Positions 17,435 to 52,985 of a stretch of 64,000 nt of DNA are shown in pieces (position 1 is the stretch's first letter; each line of letters starts with the position of its first letter). The translations under genes were made by a program, and so were the position numbers. The DNA lies in the NCBI RefSeq assembly GCF_029873635.1, contig NC_080419.1:74946597-75010596 (forward strand), read 5' to 3'. Source of the stretch: Malania oleifera (Eukaryota > Streptophyta > Magnoliopsida > Santalales > Ximeniaceae). The notes under the pieces were generated by a model that saw only the letters and a list, made by a program, of their open reading frames with translations, searched no databases and was not told the DNA's origin.

Positions 17435-17442
17435 TATAAATA
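17435..17442 (+). promoter_or_regulatory. TATA box of DEFL1
   Basis: TATAAATA lies 91 bp upstream of the ATG and is identical in position and sequence in all three DEFL copies. A purine-rich leader of AAGA/GGAG steps occupies the last 50 bp before the start codon. Confidence 0.7.
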
Positions 17443-17532
17443 GTTTCATATAGTGGGCATTAGTAACTCGATCATTCATCAATAAACGAAAGATACAAGG
17501 AGAAGAGGAGAGGCAAGAAGAGAAGAGAAAAG

Positions 17533-18226
17533 ATGGCTAAACTTTTATTCGCTCCTATTTTCTTTTCCATCCTTGTTTTCTCAGGTTTGTTCCATTATCT
17601 CTCTCTATTTTTTTGCCTTTAATGTAGTTATTGAATGAAAAATATGTTGGGTGGTCTTGGGCCTTCTTAACCCCAAAAACTAGCTCATGGGGTGAGACTT
17701 TCCCTCACACTTAATAACTGACCACCAGTCCCTTCCACAACCGATGTGAGATAATCCTAACAATCTCCCCCTCACACATCGGGGTCTCCCCCGGCATGAC
17801 ACACTAGGGAGAATGTTGGTGAATCAAGCTCTGATACCAGTGTTGGGTGGTCTTGGGCCTTCTCAACCCCAAAAGCTAGTTCATGCTGTAAGACTTTCCC
17901 TCACACTTAATAACTGACCACCAGTTCCTTCCACCACCAATGTGGAATAACCCTAACAAAATAAGCGGACAATCCATTTGAATTAAAATTTTCTTATTTG
18001 TATTCAAAAGCTAGACTTACTATTGATGTCTTTTGTTGTAGCTCTAGTGATGATAGAACCAAGTATGGCTCAACCAAAAAACTGTCACCTTTCCTTCACA
18101 AATGAAAAGTGTAATCCAGTAGTATGTCGGCTAAAGTGCGCAGCGGAGTACCAAGGTCGGGCTACAGGAAGCTGCCAAATGGATAATAAGCTGCAGTATC
18201 CAGTGTGCGTCTGCACTTGCCTTTGA
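17533..18226 (+). CDS. Defensin-like secreted cysteine-rich peptide, copy 1 (DEFL1)
   Basis: Two exons: 17533-17584 and 18042-18226, joined by a phase-1 GT-AG intron. The product has 78 residues. Residues 1-27 form a signal peptide: a lysine, a hydrophobic core and a cleavage site after SMA. The mature 51 residues hold eight cysteines spaced C-x8-C-x4-C-x3-C-x11-C-x10-C-x-C-x-C. The CxxxC plus CxC arrangement fits the cysteine-stabilised alpha-beta fold of plant defensin-like (DEFL/LCR) peptides, and a signal-peptide exon followed by a mature-peptide exon is typical of them. It probably acts in the apoplast, as an antimicrobial or signal peptide; target unknown. It differs from copy 2 at about 12 residues, ten of them in the mature part. 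Its intron alone carries a TRIM insertion. The exon-2 frame is open a little upstream into the intron, but the acceptor TTGTTGTAG at 18041 is clear. Confidence 0.88.
17645..17958 (-). mobile_element. TRIM element in the DEFL1 intron
   Basis: Two 118-bp direct repeats (17645-17762 and 17841-17958), both TGTTGG...CTAACA, flank only 78 bp. On the minus strand the internal part starts, one base from the LTR, with TGGTATCAGAGC (plus 17828-17839), the tRNA-Met primer site, and ends with purine-rich GAGGGGGAGAT (17763-17773). The flanks are AAATA at 17640-17644 and 17959-17963. The DEFL2 and DEFL3 introns have the uninterrupted site with a single AAATA. This is the definition of a terminal-repeat retrotransposon in miniature. 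The two repeats differ at about 12 of 118 positions, so it is not recent. It has no coding capacity. Confidence 0.92.
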
Positions 18227-18261
18227 TGCCTTTTGTTCCAATTTCCATTAACAAAGCAGCA

Positions 18262-18267
18262 AATAAA
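18262..18267 (+). terminator. Polyadenylation signal of DEFL1
   Basis: AATAAA lies 36 bp after the stop codon and is conserved at the same place in the other copies. Confidence 0.5.
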
Positions 18268-18439
18268 ATTAAACTAATTTGAGGTGTGTTCCTTATTAAT
18301 ATTATTATCGTTACATGGTTAAAATACACCGATATTTCTCGAATTAGATCCCTTAGAACATCGAACGATCTTTATTTGTTGCAATCCTATTTTCACAAAC
18401 AATAAAATAAAGAAAAGTAAAAAAAAGTTGGGATCCATC

Positions 18440-18560
18440 TGAATGATGGCACGAGTCGCTACCAAGTACCGACCATGTGCATCATAAAGTTATGAGTTCG
18501 GGAATATAGTTACACACTTTAAGAATGTATTGAGTCAATAGTACCCTCGGAGATACCAAT
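18440..18560 (+). mobile_element. SINE-like fragment downstream of DEFL1
   Basis: A TGGCACGAGTCG stretch (A-box-like) and GAGTTCGGGAAT (B-box-like, 18493-18504) are about 40 bp apart. The same sequence occurs downstream of DEFL2 and DEFL3, where about 100 extra bases separate the two boxes. Its identity as a SINE is inferred only from the box-like motifs. Confidence 0.35.
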
Positions 18561-18674
18561 TAACTTGCCAACAATATAAGGTTGTTCTTGCCCCCACAAC
18601 ATGGTGCAATGAAAAGGCATCAGCAATTAAAAAAGAATATCGAGGATTCAATTTCAAGTAGATACACTCACAGA

Positions 18675-19000
18675 ACCAACGATACATGTAAATGGTAAGA
18701 GTTTATTCTGTGAGCCAGCGGGGGCCGTGAATGGTGAGAGTTCACTCTGTGAGTCAGCTGTTAGGATTAGAGGAACCCATAGCTGGGTTCGATACACTTG
18801 GGTGAACATCAACTTGACCCAAAAGCTTAAGTCTATTGAGTCTTGGGCCCAACCATATATATAAGCACCCATCATCCACTCAATTTTTCCAATGTGGGAC
18901 AAACTCACAAGTGGAATTCTCAATAATAGCGGGGACCGTGGATGGTAAGAGTTCTCTGTGAGCCATCAAGGACTGTAGATGGTAATGGAGATGTGTCCCA
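18675..19000. repeat. Degenerate ~40-bp tandem repeat, interrupted
   Basis: Units built around ATGGTAAGAGTT...CTGTGAG occur at about 18675-18716, 18717-18757, 18929-18967 and, most degenerate, 18968-19000. A 165-bp sequence with LTR-like features sits between the second and third. This block is absent from units 1 and 2. Confidence 0.6.
18759..18925 (+). mobile_element. Possible small solo LTR
   Basis: It starts TGTTAGGATTAG, ends near CTCAATA and contains TATATATAAG followed by CCAATGTGGGAC. It splits a tandem repeat. The candidate duplication (TCAGC versus ATAGC) matches at only three of five bases, so the ends are uncertain. Confidence 0.35.
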
Positions 19001-20366
19001 GAAGTTAGGTTGACCGAACGTCTAACTAATGCACAGAAGTCGTATTCGCATCCGAACTTTACCTTGATCAGCGAAAGCTGGGGGCAGAGGACGCTGCTCC
19101 GTAGATTTGCTGCCGCACCAGGGGGTCTAAAGAGTTCGTTGGTGGCCGTAATTCCTATATAATCAAAAAATAAAAAAAATAAAAAAAATATAGGTCGTTC
19201 TTGAAATAAGCAACCATTTCTTTTAGGTGTGAAAAGTACTTTGGTTAAAAAAAAAAATATGACAATGACCCTGTTTTCCAAAAAAATATTTTCAAACTAA
19301 GAATAGCATACAATTTTCAATGCCTTACAAACATTTTGATTTAAAATCAATAGATAAAATAAAAGGTGGAATTGTGAAAAGTAATAAATGACCACAATGG
19401 TAAAAAGAAAAGAAGAATGTAAAGAAAATGACCCAATTAATTATTCATTTACGGCCTGGCCATGTCAATGCCAACTCAATAGGACAAGATAAATAAAGGG
19501 TATACTAAGTACATCCCAAATATTTAAAGTTTCAACGTTTTCCTTCAACTGCACATTAAATAAGTCTTAGACTTAATTAAAAGATGGCTCCAAAACACAA
19601 AATTTATTATTTTGTAGACTCCTCAAGCTCAAAAAGCAAAATAAAATACTCATGATGATTTTTATTTATTTAAAAATAATTAAATGAGCTCAAAATGAAT
19701 GAGAATTAGTTTAATGCAATGGAATTGAATTTACATAGATTTTGTATGTAAAAATAAAATTAAATCGAGTTGAATCAAATCAAAGTATTCTTTATAATTT
19801 TATAATTTTACAATTTTACAACATAAATTTTCATTTCATTTCATTTCACTATTAATCTATTTCATTTCTTGCAAATCAAACATTATATTAGTTTATTTAA
19901 ACTTTCCATTCAAATTTTTATTCACTTGATCTCTATCATGCTCCTAAGACATATTCTGGTAACGATATTATTTATATTTAGATTTTGTCAAACTTAACTA
20001 AATGGTCATTAGTTCCTTTTTAACATTTAAGTTAACTTTTATTCTTTAGATAGTTAGACCTTCTGTAAATTTTTTTGTAGCTAAGTATACAAAGTTCCTT
20101 GCTTAGAATTAAATGTAGGTTGTGTTGATGCGCCCACGAGTTTACTAGAATAAATTATATCTAGACGAAAGTTAAAAGAAAAAATTTTAATGTACTGTAT
20201 GATATAATTATTCTCTCGAAAGAAAACCACTTGAGTAAAAATGAAACTTTTTTGCATACAAATGCTATGGAAAATTGTTTAACGTAATCTCATGCATCCA
20301 TATATTTTCCTTGATAAATGCATGATTAAGAAACTTGACGGTGAATGGTATGTTTAACTATTTGTT

Positions 20367-20397
<31 letters not shown>

Positions 20398-20760
20398 GTA
20401 ATAATAATTTGCAATTTTTTCTCATTATCTTTATCCCTTCATCTTTTTTTTTTAATTATATTTTAATATAACATTGTTTACATTCAATTGTATCCCCAAT
20501 CAATTCGATTAAAATTTGAGAATTTATCAATTAATTGTGTAAATAATAGATAAAAAAAAAATTCTTGAGAACAATTAACTAGCGCATGTGGTACGCAAGA
20601 ATGGAGTGAATTGGAGAATGGAATAGAATGATCATTCACATTCCACTGTCACATTGGAATAGAATGAACATTCTCATTCTCCATTCCAAGAATGTAACTT
20701 GAGTTCCAAAAACATAGTCTAATCTAAAAGCTCATTCAATTACTAATCACTCAAGATAAA
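19001..20760. other. DEFL1 downstream spacer, part of unit 0
   Basis: There is no gene. From about 19200 the sequence matches 31190-32290 of unit 1, including the C/G/A pattern around 19450 and the GAATG/CATTC fold-back region at 20600-20690. A (TAA)n tract lies at 20371-20408. Similarity to unit 1 stops near 20690. Confidence 0.7.
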
Positions 20761-22273
20761 ATAATCTAGAGGATATTGTGAACAAGAAACTGTGTATTAA
20801 GGATTGTTGGTTAAATAATAATTGGAACTCTAATTTATTATTGGAATTGGTTGGTGCCAATAAAACAATGGAAATTTTGTATCAGGTGCTGACTAGAAAA
20901 AGTAAGTGGGATATTTTCGTCTGGAAGCCTACCCCTGACTGTAATTTTTCTACAAAAACGGCTTGGGAGGCAGTGAGGAGCAGAAGTGATAATTTTGTGT
21001 AGAATGACTGGTTTTTACATTCTTTATTGTCCAGAAGAATCTCAATGTGTTTATGGAGAGTCTGGTTTAAATGTTTGGCTGTAGATGGTAGAATTCAGGC
21101 CAAAGGAATACCAATGGTTTCAGCTTGTGATTGCTGTGTACAAAGAAGTCAGGAAAACATTGATCATATTCTTTCTTTAGGCGAGGTGACTTCAGAGGTT
21201 TGGTGTCGGGCTAGTGTGGTGTTGGGGATTCCTTTCCAAAGATCCCTTCCCTGGAAAAACAAAATGACAAATTGGTTCCACTATGTTCGAAAATCATCTA
21301 TTAAAGGTATTTTAATCGGGTTGATTTCGTGTTTGATTACATGGTGCCTTTGGAATCAAAGATGTAAAGCGAGAATGGAAGGAGATTATCAAAGTGCAGA
21401 TCAAATGTGGAGAAGTATTCGATTCTGAGTTAGTTTTATAGCTGAGAATACTAATTCTTTTCAAAAATTGAAGAAGTCGAGCATTATGATTTTGAACGAA
21501 TTTCAAATTAAGCATCAGGGAGTTTGCGATAGACCTGGAAAAATTATTTCATGGGTTAAACCTCGAGCAGGGTGGATAAAACTTAATTGTCATAGAAGGT
21601 GTATGGGCAATCCGGGTACTTCAGGAGGTGGAGGAATTATTCAGGATTGTCATGACATAGGAAAAACAGTTTTTTCAAGATATTTTGGCAATGATACGAA
21701 TAATAATTAAAAGCAATCAGGGAAGAAATTCGTTTGTACAAACGATTGCATTATTTTAATGTGATTATTGAAAATGACTCGCGAATTGTAATTGATTGGC
21801 TTTAGAAAGGTATATGTACTTTGTGTTATCTTTGGGATTTTGGTGAGGATCTCATGGTGAACCTAGAAAGAGTGAACGTCATGGTGATACATCAATATAG
21901 GGAATGCAATAGTGTGGCTGATTTTCTTATTAAAGAAGGAGAAATAGGAAAAAATGTAATCTACGAAAAACAACACCTTCTATCATGTTATCTGAAAGGT
22001 ATTTTTCAGATGGATAGGTGGGGTCTCACTTCCGTTTGTCATTAGTTTAACCATCGAGTTTTGTTTGGTGAATTTTGATTTTTTTATGGTTGTTTTGTGT
22101 ATCTATCTTCTTTGTTAGTTTTGTTTAGCTTTATTGTCTTGATTTGGTTGGTTACTGGTGTTGTTTCTGGAAGGGTTTAATTTTATTTTTTTGTAATCTT
22201 CCTTTTGCTTGTCTTGTAACCATGGTATTCCTCCGTCAAAAGTGAGAGTTTATTAACAAATAAATGGAGGCAC
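20761..22273 (+). mobile_element. 5'-truncated L1-type LINE, 3' part
   Basis: A broken frame encodes the reverse transcriptase zinc-binding domain (SRRISMCLWRVWFKCLAVDGRIQAKG near 21030-21100, Cys pair CDCC) and then an RNase H-like domain (KLNCHRRCMGNPGTSGGGGI near 21575, VIHQYRECNSVADFL near 21880). Stops and frame changes occur at 21001, 21426 and 21709. The 3' untranslated end has the characteristic GGTATTCCTCCGTCAAAAG and is cut by Copia-2 at 22274; its last few bases and A-tail resume at 27115-27150. Related 3' ends occur at 49045-49275 and 62736-63690. Confidence 0.85.
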
Positions 22274-22633
22274 TGTTCTGCCGGGCACCCCACTTGTGCC
22301 AAACACCAATACTACAACTATTGTTATTGAATATATAAGAAATTAAAGCAATACAGAAACCAATAATAAAGCAATAAAAAGAACAAGACAAGAAATTTAC
22401 GAGGTTCGGTATAGAATTACCTACGTCCTTGGGCGCCGATGATCAATCCACTACTTCTTGACAAAGTACAACTTTAAGGTGTGTTTTACAAATGAAGAGT
22501 TGAGCTCTTTATATAGCTCAACCTCAAGTTTAAAAAACACTTTTCTCCAATGTGGGACAAATAATATAAAAAATTCAAAACGACCTTTTATACTAATGTG
22601 GAAGTATTCTACCAATGTGGGACAAAAACAACA
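22274..22633 (-). repeat. 3' LTR of Copia-2 (left on the + strand)
   Basis: This 360-bp terminal repeat matches 26755-27114. It contains two CCAATGTGGGAC motifs near 22549 and 22613. Confidence 0.93.
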
Positions 22634-22720
22634 AATCTCCACCTTAACGATAAATTCAACAAATTTTTCAGTCACTAACATTTTCTGGAGTTCCACATCA
22701 TTGGCGCCTTCCAAAATTAT

Positions 22721-25700
22721 TCAGACTTGTAGGATATTGATCAAGTCCAAACAATGTTTGAACTTGATTGTCGTCACAATCTTGGTCAACATATCTACGG
22801 GATTTTTAGTTGTAGCAATCTTCTGAAGAAGTATCTTCCCTCCATCAATAATATCCCGCATAAAATGAAACAGAACGTCGATATGCTTCGTTCGTCTATG
22901 GTAGACTTGGTTCTTTGCCAAGTGAATAACACTCTGGTTATCACAGAATACAACCGTGTGCTTCTGAACAACTCCCAAATTTTCAAGTAAACCCTGCAAC
23001 CAAATAGCTTCCTTAACAGCCTTTGAAACTGCCATGTACTCTGCTTCTGTTGTAGACAAAGCAATGGTAGATTGTAAAGTAGACCTTCAACTCACTAGAA
23101 CATTAGCAAATGTAAAAATATATCCAGTAGTTGATCAACGTTTATCCAAATCACCTGCAAAATCCGAATCCACATATCCAATAACACGTTGATCAATAGT
23201 ATTACTTTTCTCAAATACTATACCAATATCAATCGTATTCATAATATATCTCAAAATCCATTTCACAGCTTGCCAATGTCCTTTACCTGGATCATGCATA
23301 TACCTGCTCACCATACTAACAGCTTGTGAAATATTAAGTCTAGTACAAACCATTGCATACATCAGACTACCAACTACATTTGCATAAGGAATTGATTTTG
23401 ACTGCTCAGACATGCCAAAACTCTGTACTACCTTCTTCAAATACTATTTCTGAGACAAACTAACTTTTCCTCTCATTCTGTCTCTGCGAATCTCTATGCC
23501 AAGTATCTTCTTTACTTCACCAAGATCGTTCATCTCAAACTCTTGATTTAACTGACTTTTCAACTTGTTGATTTCTTCCTTATTCTTTGAAGCTATCAAC
23601 ATATCATCAACATACAAGAGTAAATATATAAAAGATCCATTTTGTAGTCTGCGAAAATAAACATAATAATTATGTTTATCTCTGTTGTACTTCTGACCCA
23701 TCATAAACTGATGAAATCATTTTGGAGACTGTCTTAAACCATACAACGATTTACCTAGTTTACATACCCAATTTTCTTTTCCAACAACCTCATTATAATC
23801 AATGCCTTCCTTCTGTGCGTATCCCTTAGCTACCAATTTAGCTTTGAAGTGAACATTATTTGCATCTGAAAATCCTTCTTTCTTTACATAAACTCATTTG
23901 CAACCAATTGCTTTCTTACCCTTGGGCAGTTGGGTTAGCTCCCAAGTCTGATGAAGAGACTACATTTCTTCATCCATTGCTTTTTTCCACTTTTCTGATT
24001 CAGAGTTCCCTATTACTTCTTTGAAAGTGTAAGGAACATTATCTTCCAAAACTAGAAGTGCATAGGCCACCATATCAGTATACCGAGCAGGTTTTCGAAT
24101 TTCTCGTCTTGGCCTTTGAGAAACAATTGATTCTTGTTGCTAAGAAGATTCTCGAATTGAAATCTCCTCTTCTTGTACACTATTTTCCACTGTAACTGGA
24201 GAGTTACCTTGTGTAGTCTCATTTCTCACTGGGTTTTCCAAAATTGTCTCAACCTCCACTTGTTGTTGAGTACCACTAGTCTTCTCTTCAACTCGTGACT
24301 CCTTACGTATTGTTTTCTTCATCATCGTAAGTTCATCAAAAGTTACATCTCTACTTAAAATCATTTTTTTCGTCTCTAGACACCAAAGACAGTATCCTTT
24401 GACTCATGCACTTATCCCCAAGAATATTGCTTTCTTGGCTCTTGGATCCAACTTAGATTCTTTAACATGATAATAAGTCATAGTACCAAATATATGTAAA
24501 GAATCATAATCTCTAGTAGGCTTTCCAGACCATACATCATAGGGTGTTTTTCCCTCTATTGCAGATGATGGTAGACGATTGATGAGATGACACGCATATC
24601 TAATAGCCTCAGCCCAAAACCTTTTGTCTAACCCAACATTAGACAACATACATCGAACTTTCTCCAGCAAAGTCCAATTCATGCGCTCTACCACCCTATT
24701 CTGCTGTGGTGTATTTCAAACTGTGAAGTGTCCAACAATACCTTCATCCTGACATACCTTCATAAATGGGTCACTCGTGTATTCACTACCATTATCTGAT
24801 CTGAGCCGTTTACTCTTTTTGCTAGTTTGAGTTTCAACTAATTTTTTCCATTTAAGGAAAATATTACACACTTCATTTTTATGCTTCATAGAATACACCC
24901 AAACTTTTCTAGAAAAATCATCAACAAAAGTGACAAAATAATGCATACCACCCAACGAAGCCGTTTTTGTGGGCCCTCATACATCTGTATGGATGTAGTC
25001 TAAAATACCTTCAATCTGGTGAATTGCTGTGCCAAATTTCACTCTAGTTTGTTTTTCCAGAATGCAATGCTCATAAAATTCATGTTTGCACACCTTTGCA
25101 CCCTTTAACAAACCTCACTTAGCTAATTGTTGCAAAAATTTTTCTCCTGCATGTCTTAATCGCATATGCCATAACTTGATTGTATCTGAACCTGCATCTT
25201 TTTAAGAAACAATAGTTGTTAAGCCAATAATTGTACTACCTTGTAAATAATACAAGTTATTTTTCCTTATTCCTTTCATCACCACCAGCGCGCCTGATTT
25301 AATCTTTAAGGTTCCATCTTTCAAAGTGATAGTAAACCCTTTAGATTCTAAGGCACCCAATGAAATCAGATTCTTCTTTAGGCTTGGAACATACCTAACA
25401 TCAGTCAAGGTCTTAATAGTTCCATCTTGACATTTCAACTGTATTGATCATATTCCAATTGTTTTACAAGTATTATCATTTCCCAAAAAAACAACCCCAC
25501 CATCTAATTCTTCAAAATTAGAAAACCATTCTCTATTGGGACACATGTGATAGGAACAACCAAAATCCAAAATCCACTCACCAAAATAATGTCACGAAGA
25601 TGTTCCAACAAGAGAAAAATCTGACTCACTTCCATCATCATTGGCTATATTGACATTAGAATGTGTTTTGTCTTTATTCTTCTACTGTAATTTAGGGCAA

Positions 25701-26754: not shown

Positions 26755-27114
26755 TGTTGTGTCGGGCACCCCACTTATGCCAAACACCAATATTACAACT
26801 ATTGCTATTGAATATATAAGGAATTAAAGCAATGTAGAAACCAATAATAAAGCAATAAAAAGAACAAGATAAGAAATTTATGAGGTTTGGTATAGAATTA
26901 CCTACGTCCTCGGGCACCGATGATCAATCCACTACTTCTTGACAAAGTATAACTTTGAGATGTGTTTTACAAATAAAGAGTTGAGCTCTTTATATAGTTT
27001 CAATCTACGTCTAAAAAACACTTTTCTCCAATGTGGGACAAATAATATAAAAAATTCAAAACAATCTTTTATACTAATGTGAAAGTATTCTACCAATGTG
27101 AGACAAGAACAACA
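26755..27114 (-). repeat. 5' LTR of Copia-2 (right on the + strand)
   Basis: 360 bp starting TGTTGTGTCGGGC and ending AACAACA. It is the transcriptional start LTR because the primer site adjoins its inner edge. Confidence 0.93.
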
Positions 27115-30272: not shown

Positions 30273-30280
30273 TATAAATA
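30273..30280 (+). promoter_or_regulatory. TATA box of DEFL2
   Basis: TATAAATA lies 91 bp upstream of the start codon, in the same context as copies 1 and 3. Confidence 0.7.
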
Positions 30281-30370: not shown

Positions 30371-30745
30371 ATGGCTAAACTTTTATTCACTCCTATTTTC
30401 TTTTCCATCCTCGTTTTCTCAGGTTTGTTCCATTATCTTTCCCAGTTTGTTTGCCTTTAATGTAGTTATTGAATGAAAAATAAGCCGACAATCCATTTGA
30501 ATTAAAATATTCTTATTTGCATTCAAAAGCTAGACTTACTATTGATGTCTTTTGTTGTAGCTCTACTGATGATAGAACCAAGCATGGCTCAACCAAAAAA
30601 ATGTAACCTTTCCTTCACAAATGAAAAGTGTAATCCAGTAACATGTCCGTTGAAGTGTGCAGCGGAGTACCAAGGTCGGGCTAAAGGAAGCTGCCAAAAG
30701 GATAATACGGTGCCGTATCTGGTGTGCGTCTGCACTTGCCTTTGA
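30371..30745 (+). CDS. Defensin-like secreted cysteine-rich peptide, copy 2 (DEFL2)
   Basis: Exons 30371-30422 and 30561-30745 join across a 138-bp phase-1 GT-AG intron (donor CAG/GTTTGT, acceptor TTGTTGTAG). The product has 78 residues: a 27-residue signal peptide ending SMA and a 51-residue mature part with the same eight-cysteine spacing as copy 1. The mature peptide is more basic than copy 1, with Lys at three positions that are Asn, Thr or Met in copy 1. It differs from copy 3 at only three residues. The intron is the ancestral empty state for the TRIM of copy 1. AATAAA signals follow at 30769 and 30781. A minus-strand reading frame over the 3' half is a shadow. Confidence 0.88.
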
Positions 30746-34397: not shown

Positions 34398-35060
34398 GAT
34401 AATACAACAACAACAACAACAACAACAACAAAACCAAATCTTAAGTCCCACAAAGTAGGGTCAGCTATATGAATCCTTTTTTGCCAATTTATGCGATCAT
34501 GGACCATTTCTTTTGACAGATTCAGGGACATTAAATTCTTACTCACTATCTCCTCCCAAGTTATTTTAAGTCTACCCTACCTATTCTACTGTCCCTCACA
34601 ATAACTAACTCACTTTTCCTCATTGGCGCACTATATGGCCTACGTTGCAAGTATTCATACCATCTAAGTCATCCCTCCCTTATCTTATCTTCTATAGGAA
34701 CTGCACCTAACTTACCACGAATATTTTCATTCCTTTATTTATCTTTCAATGTTATACCACTCATCCATATAAGCATTCTCATCTCGATAATTTTAACCTT
34801 TTAGATATTATGTTTCTTCGTCACCCAACATTTTGATCCATATATCATAGCTGGTCTTGTAGTTATCATATAAAACTTCCCTTTTAATTTTAAGGGTATT
34901 CTATGATCACAAAGCATACTTGAAGCACTTCTCCATTTTACCCAATCTATTTTAACTCTATGCATTACATCATCTTCAATTTCTCCTTCAGCTTGCATAA
35001 TATATCCAAGGTATCGAAATCTACAAGTGCTATTTATTTCTTCATCATAAAGTATTACTT
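34398..35060 (-). mobile_element. RTE-type LINE, 3' part
   Basis: The minus strand reads FRYLGYIMQAEGEIEDDV and GSKCWVTKKHNI followed by EMRMLIWMSGITL, the C-terminal region of RTE-clade reverse transcriptases. It ends in a (TTG)n tail (plus (CAA)n at 34405-34431), the kind of short-repeat tail RTE elements carry in place of poly-A. Several stops are present. Its 5' part lies beyond Copia-3 at 40925-41140. It inserted into the Harbinger transposase. Confidence 0.8.
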
Positions 35061-35963
35061 TGTTGTGTGTAATTCAGCTGATTGCAAATTCTATTTTCAG
35101 ATTTTAATTAATTCCAAACAAACCACAATAACAATCTGATTTTTTGTCCAAGCATCAACCTCAATCACACATAAACTTAAACCTATTTATTTTGACGCGT
35201 GTGTGTGCAAAGTCTGATAAAAAAATATATATGTTCACCAAATAGTATTAAGCAAAAACATAAACACGCCACAATCACAACCCACAATAACACAGTTACG
35301 TGGTTTGGCCAAAAAATTAGCCTGCATACACGACAGAAACTCACCTCCAGAGACACTATATTAAATCGGAAGAAATAAATACAAGTACACACAGATTTAC
35401 CCTTTCTTGTCTTACTGGTCTCCTCTAGAAATCAGCCCAAGAATAATCTAAGAAATCCCCCCTTCACACTTGCGAAGAACCCTAGGTTTCTCCTTATATT
35501 CCTCCTTAATTTCCCTAAAAGAAACCCTCCCCAAGAAACTAAATATGAGCTTTTACCTTACCTTACCCTTGCGCGAACCTCCGTTGGAGATACCCATGCC
35601 GCACCCACCTCCTGTCGTCTCCCTCTCCCGCGCGCTATGGCTGAAGGATCTCTTGGCGGTGATGGCTTCCTTGTTGCAGGTCTCCTCTCTCAGCTGGGAA
35701 GGCTCTTGCGGCTGGTGAAGCAGAAGTCTCACTGCGGCTCTGCAAGAGTCTCTCGCGGCTGGAGCAAAGAAAACCTTCTGCGCTGCTATAAAACTGAAGA
35801 GCCTCAAACCCCCGCCCCCTGGTATTTTTTCCTTATCTATTTACAATTCATTTCATGTAAATTACATCACTGCCCCTCATAGTAAAAGAAATAACATCAG
35901 CCATTGGATCTCTCAATAAATGGACGACTTGGATTTTCTTCAGGCAAGCTTGACACTCCAACG
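35061..35963 (-). repeat. 3' LTR of Copia-3 (left on the + strand)
   Basis: 903 bp, matching 40024-40924 and the solo LTR 56226-57128. The plus-strand frame at 35470-35882 is LTR sequence and not a gene. Confidence 0.92.
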
Positions 35964-36037
35964 ATTCTCCACCTTGGCAAGCTTGTGATCCTTGCACCTC
36001 CTTAGCATCTCCTATGGCGGTTCCTGCAAAAAAAATA

Positions 36038-39000
36038 CTATAAACTTCCAAGGTTAATCAAGTTCGAACAATGTTCAAACTTGGATTTAGGTATTGCTTT
36101 AGTCATCATATTTGAAGGATTATCCTCCGTTGGAATTTTTCTTACTTCTATTTCTCCACTAGAAATAATATCTCTTACAAAATGCAGTCTAACATCTATA
36201 TGTTTGGACCTATCATGATAAACATGATTCCTAGCCAAATGAATAGTGCTTTGATTGTCACAATAAATTGTAACGGTTCCACTATACATTCCTAACTCTA
36301 GGCATAGTCCTTTTATCCATATAGCCTCCTTAAAGGCTTCAGTCATGGCAATATATTCAGCCTCCATGGTAGACAAGGCTACCACCGACTCCATGTGAGA
36401 TTTCCAACTAATAGCACTACCTAAAAAAGAAAAGATCATACCAGACAAAGACTTTCTGGTATCTAGATTTCCAGCATAGTCAGAATCTACATATCCTTTT
36501 AATCTTATTTCCCAATGCATATCCTTTTGTCAAAATATTAATCCTTCTTATTTTGTTCCAGACAAGTATTGAAAAATTTGTTTCAAAGCATGCCAATGTG
36601 GTTTTCTAGGTTTGCTCATAAATCTACTCACTTGACTTACAACATAAAATAGATCAGGTCTAGAACATATCATAGCATACATTACACTACCAACCATACT
36701 AGCATAAGGTATTCTATTAATAAACAGTGACTCATCTTTAGTTTGAGGACACTGTTTTCTAGACAATTTAACATGTTGTGCAACAGGAAAAGAAGTAGAT
36801 TTAACAGGACTCATTCCAAATCTTTTTAATACCTTTGAAATATAAGACTTTTGAGACAAGTAGAGAAGCTTTTTATTCCTTTCTCTAGTTATTTCCATAC
36901 CAAGTATTCTTTTAACAGGTCCTAAATCTTTCATTTCAAATTCAGATTTAAGCATGCACTTAACTTGATGTAACATATCCATGTCTCCACAAGCAACCAA
37001 CATGTCATCAACATATAATAGCAAATATATATGACATTTATCACATGATTTAAAATAAACATAGCCATCATAATTGCTTCTACAGAAATCATTTTGAATC
37101 ATGTAAGAATCAAATCGTTTATACCATTGTCTAGGTGATTGTTTCAACCCATATAAAGATTTCTTTAATAAACATGCATGATTTTTATTCATTTTCATAT
37201 CAAAGCCCGTGGGAGGTTGCATATAAATTGTTTCTTCTAAAGTACCATGCAAGAAAGCAGTTTTAACAACAAGTTGTTCCAAATGCAAGTCATGTATAGC
37301 AATAAAAGATAATAGAATTCTAATTGAACTATGCCTCACAACAGGGGAAAATATTTCATTCTACCCCTTCCCTTTGTGTAAATCCCTTAGCCACTAACCT
37401 AACTTTATACCTAGGTGATTCAACTCCAGGGATTCCCTCTTTCCTCTTAAAGATCCACTTGAATCCTATGAGTTTCTGTTTTTCCGGTCTAGGTACCATC
37501 ACCCATGTTTTATTCTTGTTTAGAGACTCCATTTCTTCTTGCATTACAAGAATCCATTTTTCAGCCTCTTTACTATCCATGGCCTCTCTAAAAGTCTTAA
37601 GCTGCACCTCAATTTCTGTTTCAACAGAAAGAGCAAAAGCTGTCATATCAGCTTTCCTATACCTTTGAGGAGGTCTTATAACCCTCATCTCCTTATCCCG
37701 TGCTAAAAGGTAAGTTTTACTTAATTCAGAAGTTTCTGTTTCTAAGTTTTGCTCCTCAAAATCAGTAGTATCTGTTTCTAAATGGCTATAAGAAGTGGAG
37801 GGTTGCTCTACCTCAAACTGCGGGTCACTAGTATCAAAGTGCCTAACACTTTCATCTGAATTTTCTGGTTTTCCCCCTATTTTAGTTTCATTAAAAACTA
37901 CATACTTGCTAATAATATATTTTTGTTTTCCAGGTTCCACAACCCAGAGCTTATAGCCTTTAACCCCCTCTGGGTATCCCACAAAAATGCATTTAATATC
38001 CTCAGGCTCTAATTTATCAGTTCTAATGTGGGCATAGGCTACGCACCCAAAAACTTTTAAACCCTGATAATCAGCAGGCTTACCCGACCAGATTTCTTGA
38101 GAGGTTTTATAATTTAAAGCTGTGGAATGACACCTATTAATAACGTATACAGTAGTGGTCACTGCCTCTGCCCAAAAGGTCTTGGGTAGACCTGAAGTGG
38201 CTAACATGCATCTTACCCTTTCCAAAATAGTCCTATTCATCCTTTCAACTAATCCATTCTGTTGGAGAGTATCCCTAACAATCCTATGTCTAGCTATGCC
38301 CTCAGCTTTACAAAATTCAGAAAATCCATTAGATAAGTATTCTAATCCATCATCTATTCTCAGTGTTTTAACTTTTCTGCCAACTTGATTTTCAACTAAG
38401 GTTTTCCATTCTTTAAACTTTTCAAAAGTTTCACTTTTATGTTTTAGAATATAAACCCATACTTTCCTAAAAAAATCATCTATAATTGACAGAAAATACC
38501 AAGAACCACCATGAGAACTAACCGTAGCAGGCCCTCACAAATCTGAATGTATGTAATCAAGAGTCTGTTTCATGGTGTGAGTGGAATTCTTAAAACTAAC
38601 CCTAGTAGACTTACCCAAGACACACTCCTCACAGAATGACAATTCCTCAAGTTTCCTATCTCCAAGGAGCCCCTGTTTCTCCAACTCCTTTAGGCCCTAT
38701 TGGCTAACATGTCCTAGCCTTCTATGCCACAAGGAAACCTAATTTTCTACCCTATGATTGATAGGTGAAGTCTCACCAATCACTGTCTTTCCTACCAAGG
38801 TGTACAGCCCATTCTTTAACACCCCTTTTATCACTACCAGTGAACCTCTACAAACTCTTAGGCTACCTCCTTCAGACTTAAACATGTACCCTGTCTTATC
38901 TAAGCTACCAGGAGAAATCAAGTTTCTCTTCAGCTCAGGTATGTACCTCACATCTCTTAGCACTCTTTCAATCCCATCATGCATTAGAAGTCTAACAGTC

Positions 39001-39998
39001 CCAATACCCTGTATTTTACATGACTTATTGTTTCCTAGGATAACATGACCTCCTTCTAAGCATGTAAATGACTCAAACCAGTTTTTCAATGGACACATGT
39101 GGAACGAACATCCTGAATCTAATATCCATTCTTTTCCCGAATCTCTATCAGAGACATTCAACACTTCCACACTATCATACACATATAAAACTACAGTTGC
39201 CTTACCCTTTGATTTAGAGGTTGCGGCATTTGCACCATTTTTCCTCTCATGGTAGTCCCTCTTAAAATGTCCTTTCTTGTGACATGAAAAACACTTTAGT
39301 GCTTTGCTCTTACACTTTGATCTAGACCTTTTGTCTTTTCCTTTCTTGTTCCTCTTTTTAGACCTACCTCTCACATTTAACCCTTCCCCTGACCCTGATT
39401 TAGACTCAAACTTAGTGTGCAATTCCCTAGACTGCAAAATGGCTTGCACATCTTCTAAAGTCAGCCTCTCTCTCCCATACATCATAGTTTCTTTAATATT
39501 GTCATATGTGGAGTCAAGAGAACTCAATAAAAGAATTGTCTGGTCTTCTTCATCTATACTAATATTAATATTTGCAAGATCCAAAAGAATTTTATTAAAT
39601 TCATCTAAATGTTCATCAATTGATGTTCCAGGGGTCGTTTTAAAGGTGTAGAGTCTAGTCTTCTTATGGAGTCTCTTTGCTAGGGATTTTGTCATGTACA
39701 AACTCTCTAGTTTTGACCAAACTCCAACAGTCGTATCCTCATTGGCAACTTCCCTAAGCACTTTGTCTCCTAGGGACAAGATAATGGCACTATGTGCCTT
39801 TTGAAGGATTTCGGGCTTCACTTTATCGGTGGAGGGAAAACTTGGTTTCCCCTCTTATGAAGTGGAAGCCCCTTTCTTTTCTCCAAGAAGAGCCTCCTCA
39901 AGCCCCTGCTGTACCAAGATGGCACGCATCTTAATCCTCCATAAACTAAAGTCATTTTTTCTAGTAAATTTTTCTATTTCAAACCTAGCGGTCCCCAT
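36038..39998 (-). pseudogene. Copia-3 gag-pol polyprotein remnant
   Basis: The frame starts MGTARFEIEKFTRKNDFSLW at about 39998 and holds gag, a zinc knuckle (CFSCHKKGHFKRDYHERK near 39280, with the last Cys replaced by Tyr), protease (WILDSGCSFHMCP), integrase (VERMNRTILERV region near 38240), reverse transcriptase (VVKTAFLHG near 37270, LLLYVDDMLVA near 37020) and RNase H ([26 protein letters not shown]). It ends at 36038. An in-frame TAA at about 39855 follows the gag N-terminus, more stops lie near 38736 and in the integrase, and one frameshift lies near 37345. Of the four Copia elements here it is the closest to intact. Confidence 0.88.
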
Positions 39999-40023
39999 CA
40001 CATAGACATACTCTGATACCACT

Positions 40024-40924
40024 TGTTGTGTGTAATTCAACTGATTGCTAATTCTATTTTTAGATTTTAATTAATTCCAAACAAACCACAATAACAATCT
40101 GATTTTTTGTCCAAGCATCAACCACAAACACACATAAACTTAAACCTGTTTATTTTGACGTGTGTGTGTGCAAATTCTGATAAAGAAAAATATATGTTCA
40201 CCTAATAATATTCAGCAAAAACATAAACACACCATAATCACAACCCACAAGAACACATTTACGTGGTTCGGCCAAAAAATTAGCCTACATCCACGGCAGA
40301 AACTCACCTCCAGAGACACTATTAAATCGGCGGAAATAAATACAAGTACACACAGATTTACCCTTTCTTGTCTTACCAGTCTCCTCTAGAAATCAGCCCA
40401 AGAGTAATCTAAGAAATCCCCCCTTCGCACCTGCGAAGAACCCTAGGTTTCTCCCTATATTCCTCCCTGATTTCTCTAAAAGAAACCCTCCCCAAGAAAC
40501 TAAATATGAGCTTTTACCTTGCCTTACCCTTGCGCAAACTTCCGTTGGAGATACCCACGCCGCACCCACCTCCTGCCGTCTCCCTCTCCCGCGCGCTATG
40601 GCTGAAGGATCTCTTGGTGGTGATGGCTTCCTTGTTGCAGGTCTCCTCTCTCGGCTCAAAAGGCTCTCGCGGCTAGTGAAGTAGAAGTCTCGCTGCGGCT
40701 TTGCAAGAGTCTCTCCCGGCTGGAGCAAAGAAAACCTTGTGCGCTGTTGTGAAACTGAAGAGCCTTAAACCCCCGCCGCCTGCTGTTTTTTCCTTATCTA
40801 TTTACAATTCATTTCATGTAAATTACATCACTGCCCCTCATAGTAAAAGAAATAACATCAGCTATTGGATTTCTCAATAAATGGACGGCTTGGATTTCCT
40901 TCAGGCAAGCTTGACACACCAACA
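40024..40924 (-). repeat. 5' LTR of Copia-3 (right on the + strand)
   Basis: 901 bp, starting TGTTGTGTGTAA and ending CCAACA. It is adjacent to the primer site. Confidence 0.92.
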
Positions 40925-41140
40925 TTACTAAAATTACATTTCATATATTTTGTCTTATTTCTACTTATCCTAAAGCCTTTAGATTCCAAAGCTTCTCTCC
41001 ATAATTTTAATTCAGCCTCTACTCTGTCCCTAGTTTCATCAATTAATACAATATCACCTACAAACAACATACACCAATTGATATTTTGTGTAAGTATATG
41101 GTAAAGCTTTATCACTAATTGTATATACTTGCTACTTACC
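40925..41140 (-). mobile_element. RTE-type LINE, 5'-truncated start
   Basis: The minus strand reads SKYIQLVIKLYHILTQ, then NWCMLFVGDIVLIDETRDRV and ALESKGFRISRNKTKYM, the RTE reverse transcriptase around its catalytic motif. The usual ADD motif reads VGD here, so a key Asp is lost. The element is 5'-truncated at the Harbinger junction near 41140 and continues at 35060 on the other side of Copia-3. Confidence 0.8.
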
Positions 41141-43675: not shown

Positions 43676-43689
43676 TCCCCCTTTAAACT

Positions 43690-46600: not shown

Positions 46601-47808
46601 CTTTAGTTTGATATCAAAACATCTCCTCTCCCTCGGACTGGGATTTTAAAATTATCGCCAAAAGAGATCTCCCCCTAAACTTTCTCATCAAGTTCAAAGA
46701 ATAAGTTCTTTCTACCAGTCATATGGTTGCTGGCTCCAGAATCAAGGTACCAAAAGCTTTGGTCCTGGGGAGTTGAATTGTGTGCCATCAGCATCAACAA
46801 TTCTCCATCTGCATGTTCAGTTTCGACAAGGTTAGCCTCCTCGCTAACCTTTTCTTGTTGTTGCCCCCAACATTCATTGCTATAGTGTCTGTACTTGTAA
46901 TAATTATAGCATTGAATGTTTCTTTTGTCTACGTTTGGACGGTTATTGTATCCCCCTCTTCTTCCTTGTCCTCTACCTCGTGGAACATAGTTCTTTTGAT
47001 TGCATCCTTCTCTAGTGGGACCTCTTCTGCCTCAGCCACCTTCTTTGGAGTTAAAATTTCCATAATTTCTTCCACGAAATCCTCGGTCTCGTCCTCTTCC
47101 TTGCTGTGACATCCCCCCTTTGTCGTATCTATCCGCAGTGAGGGACAACTCTGTTTGGAGAGCTTGCTCTAGTACTTTCTCATCACTTCTTCTGTTGACT
47201 TTCTGCTCATGGGTTTGGAGTAAGCCCACAAGTTCTTCTACGGACATTGTTTCCAAATCTTTTGTTTCTTCCAAGGTCGCGGCTATATAATCATATTTTG
47301 GATCTAAAGATCACAAAATTTTCTCACAAATTCTCTCATCATTGAGTGTCTCTCCATTTCTTCTCAATTGATTTGATACTACTATAACTCTTGTATAGTA
47401 GTCAGCAATAAATTTAGTAGATTTCATTTTTAAAGATTCGAACTCACCTCGTAATGTTTGAAGACGAATCTTTTTCACTTTGACTACACCTTTGTGTGTT
47501 CGATGGAGAGAGTCCCAAACTTTTTTGGATGTCTTGGCGGAGGTGATGATTTCAAAAGTGGCCTCATCAAGGCCTTGGTAGATTATAGACTTCGCTTTGC
47601 AATCCTTCTTTCGATCAGCTCACAAGGTCGTTCTTTGAACATCGGACATAGCTGCTTCAGCTTCTTTTGATGGCCTTTCTCTGTACATATCTTCAACAAT
47701 GTCCATGACATCCTGAGCACCTAGTAGGGCTCTCATTTCAATAGACTAGTTGTCATAATTCTCCTGGCTCAATTTTGGAATGATCGCTTGGGTAGTACCG
47801 TTAGCCAT
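43690..47808 (-). pseudogene. Copia-4 gag-pol polyprotein remnant
   Basis: An ATG at 47808 opens MANGTTQAIIPKLSQENYDN, a standard Copia gag start. UBN2 follows, with VKKIRLQTLRGEFESLKMK. The zinc knuckle near 46900 has lost its second Cys to Tyr and its Gly to Arg. Next come protease (WYLDSGASNHMTG near 46745), integrase (SLRSDQGGEYKDEAFLEF near 45960), reverse transcriptase (FYDLKQAPFAW near 44770, [11 protein letters not shown] near 44640) and RNase H (YIDNQSAIALAKNPVYYERS near 43900). In-frame stops and frame changes are scattered, for example near 47745, 47323, 46675 and 45177. Confidence 0.87.
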
Positions 47809-48436
47809 TGAATTTAATATATAAAAATAGAGGAATGGGGACTGATTTTGGAGAATCCAATACCACCAATATGTTCAGAAGGATGAAAAACCTTAGGAAC
47901 CAGTTTTGGGTTGCAAAGAACCGGTCCAAAAATCAGTGAACCAACTATAGGGATTTTCGAGTGGTTTTTAAACTGGCCGATTCAACTTAACGGCCGTTAA
48001 ATGGCGTTATGCTTACCGTTAGTCCACGTGACAGTCTCTACGCAAGCCGCGTGTTGGCGGCTAGGACACGAGTCAGAAGCGGGTGGGGTCTCGAGTACGA
48101 ATCCGGTTTGCGGGTAGCTTATTCGGGTCGCGGGTTGCTAGCCGAGTCAGGTCTCACCAAGCGGGCAAGGAAGATGCATGGGCACATGTCACCGGCGGCC
48201 GGAGTCTTCGTCGGCGCATGCAGCGCCTCGGAAAGGCACTACAAACATCTGAGGTGCGTGTGAGCGCATGCAAAACCTACCAAAGTTCGTTTGAGATGTG
48301 GTTTCCACCGTCGGAATCGTCTCGAGTCGAATTTCACAATGGTAGACTCAATTTTTGATTTTGAGCAACTTCAAATCTGAGAGATATGTTCGTCTTGTTT
48401 GACAGATTTCAGCGTTCCTAGATGCCCTGATACCAC

Positions 48437-48764
48437 TTATGGGTAGAGAGGAACACTCAGTCACTGGTTGTGACTAAAACTCAGTGAGAATAAATGCACA
48501 ATAACAATATATTTCAATCTCAAAATAGATACAGAGAACTTCAAATTAAAACCCTCTCTCACGCTCACTGGTTTTACACTCTCAACACACCGCATCCTTC
48601 ATTGCACACACACACATCTATTTATAGTAAATCATACAACAATATAATCAACAATGGTGGGAATTAAACTTCAACGGAGGTGGGCTGGTAAGCGGAGTAG
48701 GTTGCCTGCCAATCTCCAATGTCAACAGAAACGACTGCCGACGAGTCAAGTTTAATTTTCAACA
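48437..48764 (-). repeat. 5' LTR of Copia-4 (right on the + strand)
   Basis: 328 bp; starts TTATGGG where TG is expected. The leader between it and gag (47809-48436) is GC-rich and holds a palindrome TTAACGGCCGTTAA near 47988-48001. Confidence 0.92.
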
Positions 48765-48769
48765 CTAAT

Positions 48770-49044
48770 TACATTTGTAGTTATTCGAAACCAATTCTTA
48801 ATAAAAAATAACTAACATAAGGAAACAAACTAATGTTTAGGAAATTCTTTGTGTGCGCATAAGAAAAACTAACAATTGACTGGAAGTGAAACAACTGTCA
48901 TTTACTTCCTTTTGCTCTTCAACTTTCTTATAGCCTCAACAATTTTATAAAAAATAAAAAATTTAAATTTAAATAAAAAAAATCAACTGCACATCCCTTA
49001 CCTATCATCTCATGAATATAGTATGATTTAGCAACATATCCATC
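48770..49044. other. Spacer between Copia-4 and the L1 3' end
   Basis: There is no gene. It is equivalent to 62436-62710. Compared with unit 2, about 725 bp of L1 sequence is missing at the CATC junction (about 49041). Confidence 0.7.
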
Positions 49045-49284
49045 AACTCTAGAGTTTTGTTTGGTGTATTTTGATTTGTTTTTTGTTGTGTTTATATTTT
49101 TATCTTCTTTGTTAGTTATGTTTGGTTTTGTTGTCCTGATTTGATTGGTGGTGTTGTTTTTTTGGGAAGGTTTTTCTGTAATCTCTCTTTGCTTATTTCG
49201 TAACTACGGTATTCCTCCGCCAAAAGTAAGGGTATATTAATAAATAAATAGAGGTACTGCCCTCTTTTAGTAATAAAAAAAACT
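49045..49284 (+). mobile_element. L1 LINE 3' terminal remnant
   Basis: This is the 3' untranslated end of the L1 at 20761-22273, with GTTTTGTTTGGTG, GGTATTCCTCCGCCAAAAG and GAGGTACTGCCCTCTTTT followed by an A-tail. It is an empty site for Copia-2. Confidence 0.8.
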
Positions 49285-52231
49285 TACGAAAGTTATAATA
49301 ATTAATTATTCTCTTTGAAACCATTCAAAATTAATCATACAAGATTTGACTTCTAATGAGGTACCCCAAAAAAAAGTGTTTTTTTGTATGAGATTTTATG
49401 GTAACTCAAAAATCAGTTCAGAATTAAGCCCTTTTTTATTAAGAATTATGATACATTGTCAAATTATTATTGCATTTAATGATTTATTTGAATTCAAATT
49501 TATAATTCCTAATGCATTTCATAAAATTATATACAGAAAAGCAGAATAGCTGGCTCAATAACCAATTAAAACCTTTCTTGCACAATTTAAAGTACATATT
49601 TAATTATTGCGCTCTTTTAAAAAATTAAAACATATTCGCGATTCAGTTTAATGTTTTGAATTACCAAGACACATAATTGTCAATATCTCTAGAATAAGAG
49701 AAAACAAACTATGTAAATTACTATTACAATTTATTTTGTTATGTTTCAAGTTATTATTAATAATAATATTTTATTAATAAAGTTATAAAACATGTATAAT
49801 ATGCTATGCTAACATATAAAATTTTTGCTACATTTTCAATATATTTAATATTTTCCTTGAATCTAGTTCTAGAAAAAACTTAAAGACCCCACTTGAAACT
49901 TAAAAATATTAGAGCAATAAAAAGAAAACACAAAAAATAATAATAATAATTTTTCATCTTTAGTTATGAAAATAAGGAGAATAAGAAAGAAAATAAAATA
50001 CATACCAAACTAATGAACAAAATTTTAATTTTAAGCATCATTAACATTTGATTTTTTTTCTGAACTTTTAATTATATTAAAAAATTATTTTTAGTAATAT
50101 TGAGCGTAAGAGAAAAATACATATATTTGTGTGTGTATCGATAAAAGCTTCATGAATCTACATGTTGAAAAATACATCGTTGTAAAAATTGCATATAAAT
50201 TTCATTATTTTAAATGCACAGCAAATTATAATTTTTTAGATTAATTATATGTAAATTAAATAAATTTATTTCTATTGAAATTAACAAAAAAAAAAAGATT
50301 TAGAAAATTCAATATATTTATACAAAGACTGTCAACGTGCTTATAAAATATATAGTGATACAATTTTCTTTTATGTATTGCTATCATCATATATTAATTT
50401 TAAAACATTCTCAGTGTGAACTTGAATATGATTTAAATATTTTTAAATTTCATATAAAGAAAACTAACATTTTATTTCATTAAAAATTCAAACACATAAT
50501 TTTGGTATGCTTTTTAAAAATTTTTCTAATGGAATACAATTTATTCACTATATAAATATAATTTTATACTTGAAATAATTTTAAAATCTTGCATTAATTT
50601 CAATAAATTTTATTTTTATCACTCTTATTAATATTTCAAGGTCGACATTATTTTGGTATCCTAATTTAAATAATGCAGTATAGAGTCTTATGATAGTTGG
50701 AGATTTAGTAATTATTTCTTTTTAATTTAAAGTCAACATGAATTTAAACACAACTTATTACATTCTAATTTGTTTGATGTCGTTTTTAACTAAAAAGTAT
50801 GATACTACAAATTAACGCCATTAAATTTTTAAAAAATTCTAAAGTGGATGATCCATAAGATAAAATAAAGTAAAATAAAATAAAACACACACACACACAC
50901 ACACATTTTTCAAAATTTTCAAATTCTTCAAAATTCATGTTAATTATGCAAAATATTTCATATAAAAATATAATAGAAAATAATATTAGATAGATTCGAG
51001 AATATGATGTAAAGAGAGATAAAATTTCTTGTTGTCATTAGCGTTAATTAAGAATTAATTTAATTGGCAATGTTTTTATCAAAGGGTTAACCAATTGCAA
51101 CTAATTAAAAAAATTAGAAATCAACCAATTAGAACATTATAATTTAATCAATCAGAAATAGTAATTGAATTAAATTTTTTTTTTTGTAATTCCTAAAATA
51201 TTACAGAATTAATACTTTCTAGAAACACTAATAATAATTAAATTAAAATTTTCTGTAACTCTTATCCACATGTTTGGTATATAGGAATAGAATGGAGTGG
51301 CATGGAATGGAATTGAATTTATTATTTGATTTCTTCATTCTCTCCATTCAAAATTTCATTCCATTCGATTCCCGATCCATTTCATTTCGCAAACCAAACA
51401 TGGCATAAGCATAATTGAATTAATAATTAATTTAATTCTCAATAATATGTTTTACTGTCACCAATACTAGTTATATTAATTGTTAAATAATTAATCAAAA
51501 ATAAATTTATTAGATATATTTTTTTCCAAAATATAGAAATTTCATAAATTGATATTCAATATTTATATTGTCATAAATGGATACCATCATGCTTCAATAA
51601 ATTAGCATAAATATAGATTGATCATTATAGAAATTTTTGAATTCAAACATTTTTCACTGTGACAAAAATTAAATTATAAATAAATTTTATGAGAAAATTT
51701 TGAAAATATTATTTATTTTATAAAATTTCAATAGAACACAACTCATATAACACAAAATCGAAATTTCATATAGCAAATATTAAATACTTGGAATAAGTTG
51801 TTACATTATCTCAAACTCAATCATACATACGAAACAATCAAGATAGATATGACTAATTCACTTGATTGAGAGAAGGATTCATGGAAATGATTAAGAGAAG
51901 GATTTAAGTGGGAGCAAAAGAGCGAGATTGCAAATTTAAAGCTATTAAAGAGATTTGTGGCAATCAACGAGAGAAGGGGAGAGGGAGGGAGAGATGTTTG
52001 TGAAAGACAACCAAAATTCTAAGAGGGTAAAAATAATAATATATTTTATGGGTTAAAATGCTCTAATTAATAATATGCTCCAATCGTAATCAAGAAAACA
52101 AGAATTAAATTAATTAAAAATTAGTTTTAAATTTTAAAAATTTAAAATTATAATAATTAGGATTTGGGGTTTGCGGGATTTTGAAGTCAATACGGATTGT
52201 TGTTAATACATAATATAGACTGAAAAATAAT
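49285..52231. other. AT-rich spacer of unit 2
   Basis: There is no gene. It matches 27146-30013. It has about 142 bp (50400-50542) that unit 1 lacks and an (AC)n tract at about 50884-50906. Confidence 0.75.
51269..51402. mobile_element. Small fold-back (MITE-like) element
   Basis: CATGTTTGG (51269-51277) and CCAAACATG (51394-51402) are perfect inverted ends of a 134-bp sequence rich in GGAATGGAAT and CATTCCATTC. The unit 1 copy near 29075 has lost 39 bp, including the right end. The superfamily is not identifiable. Confidence 0.5.
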
Positions 52232-52380
52232 TCCGCCCTCACGGGCATGGCACGGTGCAAAGACATCAGTAAGTAACAAGGAGTATCGGAGATTCAATTT
52301 CAGGTAGATACACTTATGGAATTAGCGGTACCTGTGGATTAGTCGAGTGTCCAAAAGACCTCGGGCACCATCATTTCAAA
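52232..52380 (+). mobile_element. SINE upstream of DEFL3
   Basis: An A-box-like TGGCACGGTGC (52248-52258) and a B-box-like GATTCAATTTC (52291-52301) are followed by GGATTAGTCGAGTGTCC and CTCGGGCACCATC. The head differs from that of the unit 0 SINE, while the tail is the same. Confidence 0.6.
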
Positions 52381-52512
52381 TACATATAAATACTCACTTA
52401 AGGTAAGTATGGTGTATTTTCCCAAAATGAATAAAGTTTTATTTTGGGCCCAATCTTTAAAGTGTTCCATCTTTTTCATTAATGGCACATTCAAATTAGA
52501 TGCAAAGACAAT

Positions 52513-52520
52513 TATAAATA
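52513..52520 (+). promoter_or_regulatory. TATA box of DEFL3
   Basis: TATAAATA lies 91 bp upstream of the ATG, as in the other two copies. Confidence 0.7.
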
Positions 52521-52610
52521 GTTTCATAGAGTGGGCATTGGTAACTCGACCATTCATCAATAAACGAAAGATACAAGGAGAAGAGGAGAGGCAAGAAGAG
52601 AAGAGAATAG

Positions 52611-52985
52611 ATGGCTAAACTTTTATTCACTCCTATTTTCTTTTCCATCCTCGTTTTCTCAGGTTTGTTCCATTATCTTTCATTGTTTGTCTGCCTTTAA
52701 TGTAGTTATTGAATGAAAAATAAGCCAACAATCCATTTGAATTAAAATTTTCTTATTTGCATTCAAAAGCTAGACTTACTATTGATGTCTTTTGTTGTAG
52801 CTCTACTGATGATGGAACCAAGCATGGCTCAACCAAAAAAATGTAACCTTTCCTTCACAAATGAAAAGTGTAATCCAGTAACATGTCCGTTGAAGTGTGC
52901 AGCGGAGTACCAAGGTCGGGCTAAAGGAAGCTGCCAAAAGGATAATACGCTACCGTATCTGGTGTGCGTCTGCACTTGCGTTTGA
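52611..52985 (+). CDS. Defensin-like secreted cysteine-rich peptide, copy 3 (DEFL3)
   Basis: Exons 52611-52662 and 52801-52985 join across a 138-bp phase-1 GT-AG intron. The 78-residue product has a 27-residue signal peptide and a mature part with eight cysteines in the same spacing as the other copies. It differs from DEFL2 by Ile to Met in the signal peptide, Val to Leu before PYLVC, and a final Val in place of Leu. Promoter, leader, intron and AATAAA signals (53009, 53021) are all conserved. Nothing in the sequence argues against function. Confidence 0.88.

Follow-up and report, generated by a model that had tools for sequence, protein, structure and literature searches.

A probable tandem array of defensin-like cysteine-rich peptide genes in duplicated blocks of the Malania oleifera genome

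Defensin-like (DEFL) peptides easily escape gene annotation, and members of this family act in pollen-pistil recognition or in defence. In Brassicaceae, PCP-A/LCR peptides are known from the pollen coat or the anther (PMC9856046, PMC5217362). Table 2 of PMC9856046 describes the PCP-A/DEFL/LCR class by the pattern CX(5-12)CX(4-8)CXXXCX(9-16)CX(3-14)CXCX(0-5)C, given together with A. lyrata and B. oleracea variants, so that across the three species the gap after CxC is 0-5, 1-8 or 1-6 residues. For Brassicaceae pollen-coat peptides, positively selected sites are described in 9 of the 12 tested. In the AtLURE1 cluster, five functional genes stand in tandem with one pseudogene, and the account of it in PMC3525529 ascribes no positive selection to these genes. 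Here, we describe a 64,000-nucleotide stretch, C3:74946597-75010596 (hereinafter, the window), from the 1.49-Gb genome of Malania oleifera, which is assembled in 510 contigs. Judging from its sequence, this stretch most probably contains part of a genuine gene array, arranged in tandem, that encodes small, secreted DEFL peptides rich in cysteine and of a PCP-A/LCR-like type. As a branch of this well-known family, the array is new and real but rather ordinary.

Three two-exon genes are found on the plus strand of the window, at 17533-18226 (copy 1), 30371-30745 (copy 2) and 52611-52985 (copy 3), each giving a 78-residue product when spliced at GT..AG. Exon 1 is 52 nt long in all three (17533-17584, 30371-30422 and 52611-52662 in the splicing model) and is followed by a phase-1 GT..AG intron; it carries the start codon together with the larger part of the putative signal peptide. 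Exon 2 (18042-18226, 30561-30745 and 52801-52985) encodes the rest of the signal peptide, a 51-residue mature peptide (18071-18223, 30590-30742 and 52830-52982) and the stop codon. The leader, as judged by inspection, is hydrophobic and 27 residues long, ending in S-M-A|Q, while the mature peptide is basic, with a net charge of +3 to +4, and carries eight cysteines with an identical spacing of 8-4-3-11-10-1-1 in the three copies. A TATA box, TATAAATA, lies 98 bases upstream of each start codon (17435-17442, 30273-30280 and 52513-52520, read directly); it is identical across six aligned copies, which also have a GA-rich leader in common. Thus, splicing and alignment bear out what the first-pass annotation had proposed for the three genes, namely a common TATA box, leader, phase-1 intron, putative 27-residue signal peptide and eight-cysteine mature part with the spacing C-x8-C-x4-C-x3-C-x11-C-x10-C-x-C-x-C. 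The 138-bp intron that it had ascribed to all of them holds for copies 2 (30423-30560) and 3 (52663-52800) and fails for copy 1, whose intron is 457 bp long and has a retrotransposon inside. Scanning the six-frame open reading frames of the window with the A. thaliana PCP-A/DEFL/LCR pattern gave three matches versus none in 30 random sequences generated with a first-order Markov model built on the window; as each gene fits the pattern, the three matches are the three genes. A related cysteine pattern returned, besides the same genes, a single frame of simple repeats at 7020.

The array continues past position 52985, the limit set at first pass. It comprises six copies on contig C3, spread across ~96 kb on the same strand, and one more on the unplaced contig C144. 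The three C3 copies outside the window lie ~8, 29 and 49 kb past its end; in coordinates extended from the window, copies 4 and 6 start at 72.1 kb and 112.8 kb, and copy 5, located by BLAST of the gene region against the fetched neighbouring pieces, occupies ~93.1-94.4 kb. Genome searches with copies 1 and 2 as queries (19 and 15 candidates, respectively, all scored) gave six strong exon 2 matches, that is, the three window copies, two more on C3 and the one on C144. Other matches to the copy 2 query up to E 10 were the first exons of the intact genes (five) and part of copy 5 (L028), together with L029 (E 2.7) and L030 (E 8.1), at whose matches no frame has as many as five cysteines. These two queries revealed no further close relative in the genome, in searches that score the best candidates only and ignore introns, so that distant copies could escape them.

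Five of the seven copies (1, 2, 3, 4 and 6) are intact. In copy 4, the last exonic base before the donor GT is A, not G, a change that may weaken splicing. The C144 copy has a 1-bp deletion causing a frameshift in exon 1; in this 24-kb contig (L020-L022), the array block with the gene is interrupted directly after the stop codon by ~15 kb of other DNA, which precedes the 3' flank, and the block may represent a haplotype, a missing copy or a misassembly. Copy 5 is broken by many small indels. Going from its side toward the 100-N run of the assembly gap at C3:75041831-75041930 (L014 1331-1430), consecutive pieces of 316 to 504 aligned positions contain 1, 1, 3, 7, 6, 5, 12, 18, then 25, 18 and 31 gap openings, while control pieces at copies 4, 6 and C144 contain 0 to 4. 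Since the density of indels climbs toward the gap, the damage to copy 5 is probably a read error at an unpolished contig end. None of the five pieces tested past the gap had a match in the window.

The defensin-like nature of the peptides, also proposed at first pass, is supported by several lines of evidence. All three published species patterns of the PCP-A/DEFL/LCR class fit each of the five intact array peptides. Their best Pfam profile is PF07333 (SLR1-BP), with 20.8, 18.5, 18.2, 18.2 and 18.9 bits (E 5e-4 to 3.4e-3), all under the gathering cut-off of 22.7 bits. Neither the three window copies (scanned to E<=10) nor copies 4 and 6 (to E<=1) matched PF00304 (Gamma-thionin, cut-off 25.1 bits), and copy 1 gave a weak match to PF10868 (Defensin_like; 11 bits, cut-off 25.1, E 0.75). 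The predicted fold consists of a helix and two strands; plant defensins rank first among its structural neighbours, with a weak Z, and the top rows include the antimicrobial defensins HsAFP1, Ah-AMP1 and RsAFP2. Copies 1 and 2 had no NCBIfam match. Searching protein databases with copy 2 alone, or with the five array peptides aligned to three other frames of the same genome (see below), returned no match, an absence that says little because only 1 and 8 candidates, respectively, shared words with the queries. Two lactate dehydrogenase rows from a search of solved-structure sequences (E 0.16-0.17) were taken as chance.

The other three frames come from a genome search with the SLR1-BP profile (four matches at E<=10 from six scored candidates), which listed none of the array copies and returned three eight-cysteine frames, L007, L008 and L009 (two on C9, one on C1), in addition to a partial match, L010. 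As peptides, the three reach 23.0 to 24.2 bits against SLR1-BP, above its cut-off, match PF00304 under its cut-off and likewise fit the three published patterns. Both groups have C-x4-C-x3-C in common. Relative to the other frames, the array peptides are shorter by two or three residues in the loop from cysteine 1 to cysteine 2 and by two residues ahead of the last cysteine, and longer by two residues from cysteine 4 to cysteine 5 and by five from cysteine 5 to cysteine 6; the other frames end in C-x-C-x3-C. In sequence terms, the terminal CxCxC of the array therefore differs from other frames of the same genome, yet stays inside the PCP-A/DEFL/LCR class. At first pass, it had been suggested that it may mark a distinct subgroup; since the published gap after CxC already extends over 0-5, 1-8 or 1-6 residues, CxCxC alone is no such mark, and a subgroup defined on spacing alone finds no support. 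A literature search for defensin-like peptides with CXCXC returned a single paper, on centipede venom.

Let us now consider how the copies vary. Among the five intact ones, 22 of 153 sites are variable in the mature region, 12 of 138 in the intron and 25 of 200 in the first 200 bp downstream, and the mature region does not differ significantly from the intron (p 0.15) or the downstream DNA (p 0.64). Pairwise dN/dS (the ratio of nonsynonymous to synonymous substitution rates) for the mature part is ~0.72 between copies 1 and 2 and ~0.58 between copies 1 and 3. These ratios, and a variability equal to that of non-coding DNA, give no support to positive selection on the mature peptide. No cysteine is changed in any of the five copies, and two cysteine codons carry silent changes. 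When the differences from the consensus (32 coding positions in total) were placed at random, each copy receiving the number of changes that it actually has, all cysteines were kept in 5.9% of 20,000 runs, no stops arose in 38% and both held in 2.7%, figures that overstate the constraint because the two broken copies were excluded and shared differences were counted separately. In copies 2, 3, 4 and 6, the 150 bp before the start codon have 2 of 150 variable positions versus 28 of 334 in the flanks (Fisher p 0.0018), the flanks being -300 to -151 and +1 to +200 and having been picked after the counts were seen; the intron, with 7 of 138 variable positions in these copies, stood outside this test. 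Such conservation, as read from the aligned copies, fits a shared proximal promoter under constraint.

The genes sit inside a duplicon, as initially proposed, and comparison of the window with itself and with its neighbours extends this duplicon past the window. Same-strand blocks repeat in order, the one starting at 27114 matching those at 49252 and 63645. Taking these, arbitrarily, as cut points, the unit with copy 2 spans 27114-49251 (~22.1 kb) and that with copy 3 spans 49252-63644 (~14.4 kb), the next unit leaving the window from ~63645; around copy 1, only part of an older, more diverged unit is seen (17252-20685), as patchy matches to the units of copies 2 and 3. Block matches of at least 600 bp reach ~119.3 kb in window-extended coordinates, with an interruption at ~95.2-105.8 kb around the assembly gap; there were none in the pieces from ~119.3 to 133.9 kb or in the 20 kb before the window. 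Leaving aside the noisy copy 5 stretch, block identity is mostly 90-96%. Nearly everything around the genes had been described as dead transposon, which is supported in part: 12 of the 20 longest ATG-initiated open reading frames of the window (at least 124 aa) match transposon-related Pfam families; the other eight have no Pfam match at E<=0.001.

As the sequence shows, blocks of 14-22 kb, each with a gene and transposon remnants, have been duplicated in tandem, and the cysteine frame has been held fixed while the loops drifted. Beyond this, the following may be proposed. The peptide would be secreted, and its fold might be a helix packed against a beta hairpin, the C-x3-C of the helix being bonded to the C-x-C of the last strand. 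The copies might also be co-regulated.

Within the copy 2 block, at 35060-40926, there is a copia element that is flanked by direct repeats of ~905 bp, 93% identical, and has its gag and pol fragments in minus orientation (36548-39695); at the equivalent place of the copy 3 block (56220-57130), there is a lone such repeat resembling a solo long terminal repeat (LTR). Plus-strand pieces of tnp2 transposase, DUF4218 and DUF4216 at 9637-14412 presumably belong to a CACTA-type transposon. Some 7.6 kb past the last block, an open frame on the minus strand (L017 3026-3421) shows a weak match to the RCC1 repeat (14.3 bits, cut-off 22) and is possibly an ordinary neighbour gene. MatK-like plastid fragments are dispersed in the nuclear contigs (at least 50 matches, 83 candidates scored), and ARAGORN found no tRNA.

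The intron of copy 1 is longer than 138 bp because a terminal-repeat retrotransposon in miniature (TRIM) was inserted into it in antisense orientation (17645-17958, minus strand). The insert is 314 bp long, with an AAATA target-site duplication at both edges, and is made up of two 118-bp LTRs (106 of 118 positions identical) around a 78-bp middle. One base past the terminal repeat, the minus strand of this middle reads TGGTATCAGAGC, which we take to be an initiator-Met-tRNA (iMet-type) primer-binding site. At least 49 matches to the insert were found in the genome with the best 40 of 814 first-look candidates scored, and the family is therefore a high-copy one. A ribozyme-bearing retrozyme, another reading of a small LTR element, is disfavoured by the absence of any Rfam match at the gathering threshold, Rfam including hammerhead families. 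According to PMC4717578, TRIMs are defined by terminal direct repeats, a target-site duplication of 4-6 bp, a length below 1,000 bp and the lack of retrotransposon proteins; the copy 1 insert agrees with each of these features tested and, like the elements described there, is too small for such proteins, resides in an intron and is abundant. Adjacent or overlapping matches at C12:33.98 Mb, C9:42.76 and 79.54 Mb and C4:76.80 Mb suggest that tandem TRIMs occur as well.

Several other explanations deserve to be weighed against real, block-duplicated genes. An ATG just upstream of exon 2 opens an unspliced 66-residue frame in all window copies (18026-18226, 30545-30745 and 52785-52985), and the real product might be this peptide; we hold it to be very improbable, as exon 1, the TATA box, the leader, the hydrophobic signal sequence and the exact phase-1 GT..AG intron are kept in the five intact copies, and the nine PdfL genes of Arabidopsis, as presented in PMC8460643, likewise have their coding sequence interrupted by a small intron. 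Still less credible is that the gene was cargo spread by a transposon: the duplicated blocks are indeed rich in copia and other transposon remnants, but the six placed copies share a single locus and strand, their flanks repeat over kilobases, and genome searches found no dispersed copy save that on the short C144 contig. A dying family, whose copies are dispensable recent passengers of block duplication under neutral drift, is more plausible, albeit unlikely. It would account for a mature region varying at the non-coding rate, for the frameshift in C144 and the disruption of copy 5, for the retrotransposon in copy 1 and for the A in place of G at the last exon base of copy 4. However, five of the seven copies are intact and keep all cysteines, the proximal promoter is conserved, and the disruption of copy 5 grows toward the assembly gap.

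If the genes are real, what might they do? By analogy with PCP-A and LURE peptides, we would tentatively name an extracellular ligand in reproductive tissue as the most likely role. Against this role speaks the fact that DEFL peptides also inhibit fungi (PMC8460643), and it is quite possible that the same genes encode secreted basic antimicrobial defence peptides instead. The PDFL peptides of Arabidopsis inhibit fungi with six cysteines, and all nine of their genes have a small intron (PMC8460643). The positive net charge and the antimicrobial defensins among the top structural rows point the same way; however, the window copies give no PF00304 match, which the three other frames of the genome do, below its cut-off. 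In addition, the gamma-core, GxC-x3-9-C, is missed by one residue, as the loop is x10 in all five intact copies. How we grade the reproductive and the defence role is a matter of judgement. It is tempting to go further and to imagine a set of reproductive ligands ending in CxCxC and confined to one lineage and one locus, a LURE-like or pollen-coat recognition cluster with a tightened C-terminal disulfide frame, whose members are kept in step by a shared conserved promoter and renewed by the tandem duplication of ~20-kb blocks in transposon-rich chromatin, although such a detailed picture is rather doubtful.

Overall, the array offers a clean case for how such clusters grow, with near-identical members, a mapped duplication unit and an intronic TRIM. 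That one copy was probably spoiled by an assembly error implies that gene counts in such clusters depend on assembly quality. Compared with classical plant defensins (PF00304; HsAFP1, RsAFP2, NaD1), the array peptides are similar in the predicted helix and hairpin and in their top modelled structural neighbours, and are dissimilar in profile, in the longer loop before C-x-C and in the weak Z. With the PCP-A/DEFL/LCR class, as outlined in PMC9856046, they share size, the hydrophobic leader, eight cysteines with a spacing in range, C-x3-C and the terminal C-x-C, whereas they score under the PF07333 cut-off and have their last cysteine one residue after C-x-C instead of the three in the other frames. 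Finally, AtLURE1 (CRP810_1) peptides, synergid-expressed attractants of pollen tubes, have six cysteines and a terminal CXC, unlike the eight found here; yet, as far as the description in PMC3525529 goes, the Arabidopsis cluster resembles the Malania array in being a tandem set of near-identical secreted DEFL genes of which one is broken, and in showing no evidence for positive selection.

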